Positions 3,126 through 4,960 of a stretch of 5,046 bases of DNA are shown here, piece by piece. Position 1 is the first letter of the stretch, and each line of letters begins with the position of its first letter. The stretch lies in the NCBI GenBank assembly GCA_003696125.1, contig RFHZ01000934.1, forward strand, positions 1 through 5,046. Direction: 5' to 3'. Position numbers and translations under genes: made by a program. Under the pieces are notes generated by a model, which was not told where the DNA came from, ran no database searches, and worked only from the letters and a program-made list of their open reading frames with translations. This DNA comes from Nitrospinota bacterium. GTDB taxonomy: Bacteria > Tectomicrobia > Entotheonellia > J063.

Positions 3126-3171
3126 CAGGTACCCGCTGTCGGGCAGCCCAGCAGGGAAAGGATGGGTTCTG

Positions 3172-3840
3172 ATGAAAGTTCGCGCCAAATTCTTTGCCGC
3201 CTTACAAGAGATCACCGGCCAGAAGGAGATCGATCTGGAGGTTCCCTCAGGAAGCACCCCTGTTGATCTCTTCAACACCCTGTGCCAGCGCTACCCCCAG
3301 ATGGAACGGTTTCGTGATTCCCTCCTCTTCTCGATCAACCTGGAGTTTGTTTCTCCGCAGGACCGCCTCGCCGAGGGAGACGAGATCGCCTTTATTCCCC
3401 CGGTAAGTGGAGGAGCAGGGATGGAAAGCACGCCGAAGAAACGGTTCCTGATCACAGAAGACCCGTTGCCCGTAGAAACGCTAGTCGATGAGGTCCGCAC
3501 CGATGCCTCGGGAGCGGTGGTGACCTTTGTGGGGGTGGTGCGAAACTCCTTCCAGGGGAAACCGGTCCATCATCTCCAGTACGAAGCGTACAAGGAGATG
3601 GCCGAAAAGAAACTGGAACAGATCGGGACAGAGGTGCGGGAGAAGTGGCCTGTAGAGGACATGGCCATCTTCCACCGCGTGGGGAAACTCGACATCGGGG
3701 AGCGCAGCGTGGTCATCGTGGTCGCGGCTCCCCATCGACGAGAAGCCTTTGCCGCCTGCGAGTACGCCATTGATCGACTCAAAGAGATCGTGCCGATCTG
3801 GAAAAAGGAGTTCTGGGCCGGAGGAGCCGACTGGCGCTAA
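3172..3840 (+). CDS. moaX: Fused molybdopterin synthase: MoaD (small subunit) joined to MoaE (large subunit)
   Basis: One 222-residue frame carries both halves of molybdopterin synthase, which converts cyclic pyranopterin monophosphate to molybdopterin in molybdenum cofactor synthesis. Residues 1-81 are a complete MoaD ubiquitin-like domain ending IPPVSGG; the Gly80-Gly81 end normally must be free to carry the thiocarboxylate sulfur. Two residues (Ala-Gly) later, Met84 opens MoaE. MoaE features are present: GVVRN (Arg124, matching Arg39 of E. coli MoaE), HRVGKLDIGE, APHRREAF (His188-Arg189), and LKEIVPIWKKE with Lys204 and Lys211, the counterparts of catalytic Lys119 and Lys126. The MoaE part is 139 residues, slightly short at its C-terminus. 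Comparable MoaX fusions occur in mycobacteria, where the chain is cut after Gly-Gly. AAAGGA at 3157-3162 is a plausible ribosome site, 9 nt from the ATG. The gene ends tail to tail with the decarboxylase operon, stops overlapping by 4 nt. Confidence 0.95.
   Translation: MKVRAKFFAALQEITGQKEIDLEVPSGSTPVDLFNTLCQRYPQMERFRDSLLFSINLEFVSPQDRLAEGDEIAFIPPVSGGAGMESTPKKRFLITEDPLPVETLVDEVRTDASGAVVTFVGVVRNSFQGKPVHHLQYEAYKEMAEKKLEQIGTEVREKWPVEDMAIFHRVGKLDIGERSVVIVVAAPHRREAFAACEYAIDRLKEIVPIWKKEFWAGGADWR
3409..3423 (+). promoter_or_regulatory. Internal Shine-Dalgarno and ATG at the MoaD/MoaE junction
   Basis: The codons for Gly80-Gly81 read GGAGGA and, with the next base, form GGAGGAG (3409-3415). This strong Shine-Dalgarno site is 5 nt from the in-frame ATG at 3421-3423, which is exactly where the MoaE domain starts. 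Free MoaE of 139 residues could therefore be made by internal initiation in addition to the fusion. There is no stop codon after Gly81, so free MoaD would still require proteolysis. The site is seen directly; its use is inferred. Confidence 0.5.
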
Positions 3841-4403
3841 GACCTGGAACCGGTCACCACCTCCATCAGCCGCCTCTTGTTCAGTACCGGCTCCACCGGC
3901 GGGATGGGACTGGTGTGCCGTTCAACAACCTTGGCCAGGATGAACCAGGGGCCATCCTGAGCAAGAGCCTGCTGTACATAGCGCTCAAACTCCGCCTCAC
4001 TCCGGGCCTGAACCGCCTGGGAAATTCCTGCTCCCTGCGCTATGCGGACCAGGTCGGTCCCATGTGCCGTATGGGTAGGCTGTCCTCCCGTCTCTGCCCA
4101 CTGCTCGTTGTCCCAGACGATATGAATCAGATTGGAAGGCTTTTGACGGGCAATGGTCGCCAAAACCCCTAAGTTCATCAACAGAGAACCATCCCCATCC
4201 AGGACAATGACCTTGCGCGGGGCCACCGCCAGGGCAAGCCCCAACCCGATGGAGGAGGCCTGGCCCATGGCCCCCCAGGTGTAAAAGTTCTCTGGCCGGT
4301 CCCGCACCGCGTAGAGATCGTAAGTATTCTTGCCCAGGTTGGTGACCACGAGCTCGTCGGAAAGCTGATCGATCAGTAAGCGGGTAAGTGTTAGCCTATC
4401 CAC
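3837..4403 (-). CDS. Thiamine-diphosphate-binding decarboxylase, beta subunit (ComE / phosphonopyruvate decarboxylase C-terminal half-like)
   Basis: A 188-residue pyrophosphate-binding domain of a thiamine-diphosphate enzyme. NFYTWGAMGQASSIGLGLAL (40-59) is the characteristic early motif. The cofactor and Mg-binding motif follows as LDGDGS (68-73), then IVWDNEQWAETGGQ with Asp98-Asn99 (the usual NN pair reads DN) and TGGQ at 105-108. Together with the upstream gene it makes the two-chain version of enzymes that are single chains in phosphonopyruvate decarboxylase and two chains in sulfopyruvate decarboxylase (ComDE). The predicted reaction is non-oxidative decarboxylation of a 3-substituted pyruvate to an aldehyde; the substrate is not determined. 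I chose GTG 4403: GGAGG lies 5 nt before it and the conserved domain starts there. A TTG at 4442 would add 13 Pro/Ser-rich residues. It overlaps the alpha gene by 8 nt, so translation is probably coupled. Its stop overlaps that of the convergent molybdopterin synthase gene. Confidence 0.88.
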   Translation of the reverse strand: MDRLTLTRLLIDQLSDELVVTNLGKNTYDLYAVRDRPENFYTWGAMGQASSIGLGLALAVAPRKVIVLDGDGSLLMNLGVLATIARQKPSNLIHIVWDNEQWAETGGQPTHTAHGTDLVRIAQGAGISQAVQARSEAEFERYVQQALAQDGPWFILAKVVERHTSPIPPVEPVLNKRRLMEVVTGSRS

Positions 4404-4899
4404 GTTTTCCTCCGGTAAGTAAGGTGGAGAGGATGAGGGCAACCGGGAGCCGGGTAGAATAGGCGGAAAAGATCGCTCCCTGTACCCTCTTTCTTATCTC
4501 TTCCTCTCGCTGTAAAGTGAAATGCAGAATACCCAGCGCATCAAAAATCGGGCGAACCGCCCGTCCCATGGGTACCTGACAGATATTGAATTCCTCTAAC
4601 TCCCCCCGCTGGCTGACCAGGATGAGCAGCGGGATCTGATGAGGCACGTTGAGCGAGGCCAGGGTATTCACGCTGTTGCCCAGCCCACTCGACTGGAGCA
4701 GCATGGCCCCTCGTTTCCCTCCCAGATAGGCCCCGGATATCACCCCGATCCCTTCCTCTTCCCGCGCCGTAGGGATCAAACGGAAAAACGGATCCTTCTC
4801 CATCCGCTCCAGCACATGCTGCAGAACCGCATCCGGGACATAAGCGATGTATTCGATCCCCCCTGCCTTCAACTCCTCGACGATGGCTTCTGCCCACAT
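4396..4899 (-). CDS. Thiamine-diphosphate-dependent decarboxylase, alpha subunit (ComD / sulfopyruvate decarboxylase alpha-like)
   Basis: A 167-residue pyrimidine-binding domain, the partner of the following gene. The segment PTAREEEGIGVISGAYLGGK (43-62) contains the Glu-rich stretch that supplies the catalytic glutamate contacting the thiamine aminopyrimidine. QSSGLGNSVNTLASLN (69-84) and SQRGELEEFNICQVPMGRA (96-114) are highly characteristic of the sulfopyruvate/phosphonopyruvate decarboxylase branch. In methanogens ComD-ComE makes sulfoacetaldehyde for coenzyme M. In bacteria such pairs are often named by similarity only, and nearby genes here give no sulfonate or phosphonate context (no PEP mutase or phosphosulfolactate synthase in view). 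Two adjacent ATGs, 4902 and 4899, are possible; GGAG at 4909-4906 is 6 nt from the second and only 3 from the first, so 4899 is preferred. It is the first gene of a two-gene minus-strand operon. A phosphonopyruvate, sulfopyruvate or unrelated 2-oxo acid substrate all remain possible. Confidence 0.88.
   Translation of the reverse strand: MWAEAIVEELKAGGIEYIAYVPDAVLQHVLERMEKDPFFRLIPTAREEEGIGVISGAYLGGKRGAMLLQSSGLGNSVNTLASLNVPHQIPLLILVSQRGELEEFNICQVPMGRAVRPIFDALGILHFTLQREEEIRKRVQGAIFSAYSTRLPVALILSTLLTGGKRG
4404..4413 (-). promoter_or_regulatory. Ribosome binding site fixing the GTG start of the beta subunit
   Basis: On the minus strand GGAGG (4413-4409) followed by AAAAC leads directly into GTG at 4403. 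The same GAGGAAAAC string recurs just before the alpha gene (4918-4910). This strong site, placed within the end of the alpha gene, is the reason for preferring GTG 4403 over TTG 4442. Confidence 0.7.
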
Positions 4900-4960
4900 C
4901 ATAGACTCCGTTTTCCTCTTCTCTCTGTTGGCGTCTTCCGATCCCTTCTCTCCCCTATGA

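Follow-up and report, generated by a model that had tools for sequence, protein, structure and literature searches.

The window analyzed here, an entire contig of 5,046 bases, carries a moaX-like gene at positions 3172 to 3840 of the plus strand in which moaD and moaE share one open frame of 222 amino acids with no internal stop, confirming that a single frame spans both subunits of molybdopterin synthase. This gene is most probably an ordinary cleavable fusion of the MoaX kind that represents the in-frame extreme of an overlapping moaD-moaE pair, possibly with minor internal initiation. We also propose, with somewhat less assurance but as the likelier state of affairs, a rule for bacteria in general: the Gly-Gly motif is selected as GGA GG(N) to serve as the moaE Shine-Dalgarno site, the resulting overlap leads to a MoaD tail or to an in-frame fusion, and such precursors persist almost only in company with a JAMM metalloprotease.

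The fused gene has a Shine-Dalgarno-like site of its own, AAAGGA at 3157 to 3162 on the plus strand (-8.6 kcal/mol), ahead of its start at 3172. Its MoaD domain (residues 1 to 81; 3172 to 3414) scores above the TIGR01682 cut-off over residues 3 to 81 and ends in PPVSGG. A linker of 13 residues follows (3415 to 3453; fusion linkers have a median of 10 and a range of 6 to 26 residues), and the remainder is the MoaE domain (residues 95 to 222; 3454 to 3837), recognized by PF02391 and by our panel MoaE model. Pfam placed ThiS/MoaD at residues 6 to 81 and MoaE at residues 94 to 205, both far over their cut-offs. A MoaD of the ThiS fold is thus followed by MoaE in one open frame, with an internal Gly-Gly (residues 80 and 81) closing the first domain, as expected of a MoaX-kind gene; the frame is continuous, with no moaD stop before or just after a moaE start as a split pair would have. 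Lys204 and Lys211 would correspond to the catalytic lysines of Escherichia coli MoaE. Structural relatives in the PDB include the MoaX fusion chain 9jbd_A, and the searchable part of the genome holds no other MoaD or MoaE match. The G+C content of the window (57.1%) is in line with that of other contigs of the genome (55 to 61%).

Fusion of the two subunits and cleavage at the Gly-Gly are already known. A survey of 33,957 bacterial genomes counted MoaD-MoaE fusions in 775 (PMC11237513), and MoaX of Mycobacterium tuberculosis, which likewise carries both subunits and an internal Gly-Gly on one chain, is cut directly after the second Gly of the equivalent motif, between Gly82 and Ser83 (PMC4326299). 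By analogy, cleavage of the window gene product is predicted after Gly81, whose codon together with that of Gly80 reads GGA GGA (3409 to 3414); unlike MoaX, the window gene has Ala in place of Ser after the Gly-Gly, and a possible Shine-Dalgarno site and ATG at the junction. DR2607 of Deinococcus radiodurans is a linear MoaD-MoaE fusion, as is the window gene, and is activated through cleavage by the JAMM protein DR0402 (PMC8832034), whereas searches of the incomplete and partly masked genome of the window found no standalone JAMM. In Haloferax volcanii, HvJAMM1 cuts SAMP1-MoaE precisely after the terminal Gly, activating the synthase (PMC4443979), although that fusion is archaeal and was engineered from two separate genes. 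The window gene therefore appears to be a further member of the known cleavable fusions, and the part of the original prediction that placed it among them holds up by its domains, its internal Gly-Gly, and the cleaved relatives in the literature (PMC4326299).

Three genomes of the same class carry moaD and moaE as separate, overlapping genes in different frames. The first junction reads GGAGGAGCCTGATG, with MoaD ending in the residues GGA, one residue beyond the Gly-Gly, and the other two read GGAGGATACGAATG and GGAGGATACGGATG, with MoaD running ten residues beyond it. Judged from these junctions, the Gly-Gly codons of all three clearly occupy the position of the moaE ribosome site. It had been proposed to check whether relatives have split genes with a stop after the Gly-Gly; the genes are indeed separate, with GGAGGA as the putative moaE Shine-Dalgarno site, but MoaD ends 1 or 10 residues past the motif. 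Overlapping and translationally coupled pairs encoding subunits of one complex, with the downstream start signals within the upstream coding region, have been described (PMC10666635); in the window, by contrast, moaD and moaE lie in one frame, which leaves no place for termination and reinitiation.

Because the protein itself requires Gly-Gly, only codon choice and the presence of a Met carry information on a ribosome site. We therefore set the first Gly codon of each split pair against Gly codon usage in that pair's two genes, in a first panel of 185 loci from diverse genomes and in a second set from Chloroflexota, with start codons set by rule rather than by annotation and with close pairs defined as those in which moaE starts 3 to 11 nucleotides (nt) after GGNGG. 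In the close split pairs of the first panel, the first Gly codon was GGA in 41 of 62, against 13.3 expected; collapsing these pairs at 60% MoaD identity left 34 of 54 against 11.8 expected, a value reached in 0 of 100,000 simulations. No GGA excess was seen in the first panel where moaE lies far from moaD (9/31 versus 7.1 expected), where moaE precedes moaD (20/47 versus 18.3), or where the spacer is 0 to 2 and the start overlaps the Gly-Gly (2/14 versus 1.9). The Chloroflexota set gave the same picture for close pairs (10/21 versus 2.7 expected) and far pairs (3/15 versus 2.0). Fused genes showed no excess in either set, with GGA in 8 of 29 other fusions of the first panel (5.5 expected) and in 7 of 45 Chloroflexota fusions (4.6 expected). 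The idea that the Gly-Gly codons double as the moaE Shine-Dalgarno site, as put forward in the original prediction, is therefore right for closely spaced split genes and lost in fusions.

Overlap of the two genes also leaves its mark on the MoaD protein. MoaD extends 1 to 10 residues past the Gly-Gly in 29 of the 185 first-panel loci, and 18 of these 29 have moaE starting within the moaD frame or its stop. A recurring tail, GG-x-D-V-stop, arises from the overlapping moaE start in GATGTTTGA. MoaD requires a free Gly-Gly C terminus, and a tailed MoaD should therefore need trimming. Split MoaD proteins with tails made by overlap (GGxDV or GGY(E/G)CSASRQNP) were observed at loci L086, L087, L090, L157, L166, L167, and L179, and these tailed proteins are predicted JAMM substrates.

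The distribution of standalone JAMM proteins, called as Prok-JAB matches with E < 1e-10 from a presence list compiled by hand, follows the form of MoaD. In the first panel, a JAMM was present in 28 of 29 genomes with fusions, 27 of 28 with tailed MoaD, and 23 of 71 with a terminal Gly-Gly (P = 4e-15). The sole fusion genome lacking one is that of the window; the other 28 of 28 have it. Counting each family once per state and leaving out the window's genome gave 18/18 fused, 18/19 tailed, and 21/57 terminal (P = 8e-10), and a tree-based pair test gave about three pairs for the association and none against, too few for significance. By hand count, 88 of about 92 Chloroflexota fusion genomes have a JAMM, compared to 2 of the 20 listed that lack the synthase (P = 5e-15). 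A JAMM was not detected in four of these approximately 92 genomes (G691, G687, G570, and G662), and the rule is therefore not absolute; Chloroflexota are uninformative on tails, since nearly every genome there that has the synthase also has a JAMM. In the literature that we searched, with incomplete coverage, we found neither an association of short MoaD tails with JAMM nor selection of the Gly-Gly codons for moaE ribosome binding reported before.

In the window's own genome, a family search for a standalone JAMM returned RadC-like matches only, and a search with the JAMM protein of a relative gave one weak match (E 0.35). Both searches covered a genome with masked short contigs: of 20 contigs sampled, the 9 shorter than 3 kb read as N and make up about 26% of the sequence sampled. 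Since short contigs were read as N, this absence is weak evidence. A JAMM is present in all three same-class relatives that have moaD and moaE, as well as in a fourth with no match to either gene, and a missed gene is the simplest reading of its absence here. The genome does contain ten PF00384 molybdoenzyme matches and one MoeB-like gene, L271. This gene (L271:802-1980, on G000:C891) is the only strong ThiF/MoeB-like gene of the genome and combines rhodanese and ThiF domains. Where the PS[C]NEAGVLG motif has its conserved Cys, L271 carries an in-frame TGA, and a hairpin follows closely (-17.2 kcal/mol, z -1.8). L271 probably encodes a MoeB with selenocysteine; the Sargasso Sea selenoproteome includes such a family (PMC1088965).

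Under the cleavable-fusion reading, the main product would be a single polypeptide that is inactive until a protease, most likely a standalone JAMM (Prok-JAB) metalloprotease, cuts after Gly81. The freed C terminus of MoaD would be adenylated and thiocarboxylated by the MoeB-like enzyme, and the MoaD and MoaE parts would then form the usual MoaD2-MoaE2 enzyme. The fusion would stand at the in-frame end of a series of overlapping pairs in which the Gly-Gly codons act as the moaE ribosome site and MoaD is often short-tailed. The GGAGGA of the window gene may have been carried over from such an overlapping layout or may be coincidence, and initiation at Met84 may yield some free MoaE. Internal initiation supplies free MoaE only and never free MoaD, and is therefore no substitute for cleavage.

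A stronger role for Met84, in which ribosomes also start there by way of GGAGGAG and make substantial, selected amounts of free MoaE, is an unlikely alternative despite a favorable junction. The possible internal Shine-Dalgarno site GGAGGAG (3409 to 3415, plus strand) is followed by CAGGG and by the in-frame ATG of Met84 (3421 to 3423), 5 nt from GGAGGAG and 7 nt from GGAGG, just as the original prediction had described. Its pairing to the anti-Shine-Dalgarno sequence (-9.3 kcal/mol) matches the strongest gene starts in the window (-9.1, -8.6, and -8.2). A strong site, good spacing, and a start codon thus coincide at the domain boundary, the same codons appear to act as the moaE site in the split relatives, and the local RNA is less structured than shuffled sequences (z +1.0), with no strong structure at the candidate start. 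The ATG does not, however, begin MoaE exactly as had been claimed. Relative to the first column of the MoaE model, Met84 sits 11 residues upstream. Split moaE genes in the 62 closely spaced pairs begin nearer to that column (median, 4 residues; 11 or more in only four), which puts Met84 7 residues upstream of where moaE usually starts. Nor is the arrangement rare by chance: among sampled genes of this genome, 28% of Gly codons are GGA, and GGAGG lies 4 to 11 nt upstream of 11 of 307 internal in-frame ATGs in its sampled open reading frames, Met84 included. The first Gly codon is GGA in 16 of 75 nonidentical fusions, and the window gene and L352 are the only two of the 16 with an ATG at a spacer of 4 to 11; about 0.9 would be expected by our estimate, taking Met as roughly 2% of codons. 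The internal start is therefore not above chance among fusions, and the site and start codon are not conserved beyond chance across the 75, most of which have different Gly codons and no Met there, an outcome that the original prediction had listed as refuting it. The missing GGA bias in fusions points the same way, and as the synthase needs MoaD and MoaE in equal amounts, surplus MoaE would have no clear use. Of a cleavable fusion that also delivers extra MoaE from one gene, as originally envisaged, the first half is probable by analogy and the second, in substantial amounts, unlikely. The ATG of L352 (from G471) lies 10 nt after GGAGG and nearer the usual moaE start position than Met84 does (AASMIPLIKIT).

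The remaining alternatives concern how the gene came to be fused. An assembly or sequencing error that merged two separate overlapping genes is very improbable: it would fit the split genes of same-class relatives and a draft genome of 990 contigs (94.8% complete, 8.0% contamination), but the frame is open across 13 linker codons of fusion-typical length, and fusions are common in other genomes. By inspection, deleting one base in the GGG run reads on into TGG with no moaD stop near the Gly-Gly, and inserting one gives a first stop only about 35 codons on. That the window gene instead shares a fused ancestor with L273 and L274, the GGA GGA and Met84 having arisen by chance in the linker, is a real possibility, though not the one we favor. 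These two fusions are its best full-length matches (55% and 52% identity), Met84 is out of alignment with the start codon of the split relatives, and an ATG in range is near chance among GGA-type fusions. However, the gene has no settled position in the tree, where its nearest rows are fused L273 and L274 together with L157 and L302, split loci with tailed MoaD that are as near or nearer by path, and its same-class relatives are split, with GGAGGA. A single origin for all fusions was rejected, as fusions do not form one clade (AU test, P = 1e-7), and fused, tailed, and terminal forms interleave in the tree. A recent, separate fusion giving the window gene is plausible, but the picture of a snapshot that kept its old ribosome site is not established, given the misaligned Met84 and the unsettled tree position. 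Fused L276 (G577) and split L310 (G605) share one genus code and form a natural pair for the study of fusion or fission.

The flanking genes (DJ-1/PfpI, CBS, Usp, and thiamine pyrophosphate [TPP] enzymes) had no match at E 1e-4 among all fetched loci and so provide no evidence from synteny. Adjacent TPP_enzyme_N and TPP_enzyme_C genes at 3840 to 4902 on the minus strand, convergent with the fusion, resemble the subunit pair of sulfopyruvate or phosphonopyruvate decarboxylase. At 491 to 985 on the plus strand, the window encodes a pilin-like protein that bears an N-terminal methylation motif and matches T2SS protein G.

These results offer an account of how MoaD-MoaE fusions may originate. The obligatory Gly-Gly motif is also the best ribosome site available, so moaE would come to start within the last part of moaD or right next to it, and as a consequence MoaD would gain a tail or a fused partner that a JAMM must remove. 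Iyer et al. suggested in 2006 that JAB domains might release fused ThiS/MoaD proteins, although they saw no JAB proteins in molybdenum-cofactor pathways (PMC1779556); our panel backs this idea and widens it to short-tailed MoaD. If the proposed rule is true, many split MoaD proteins would be zymogen-like precursors, extending this mode of activation beyond the known fusions.
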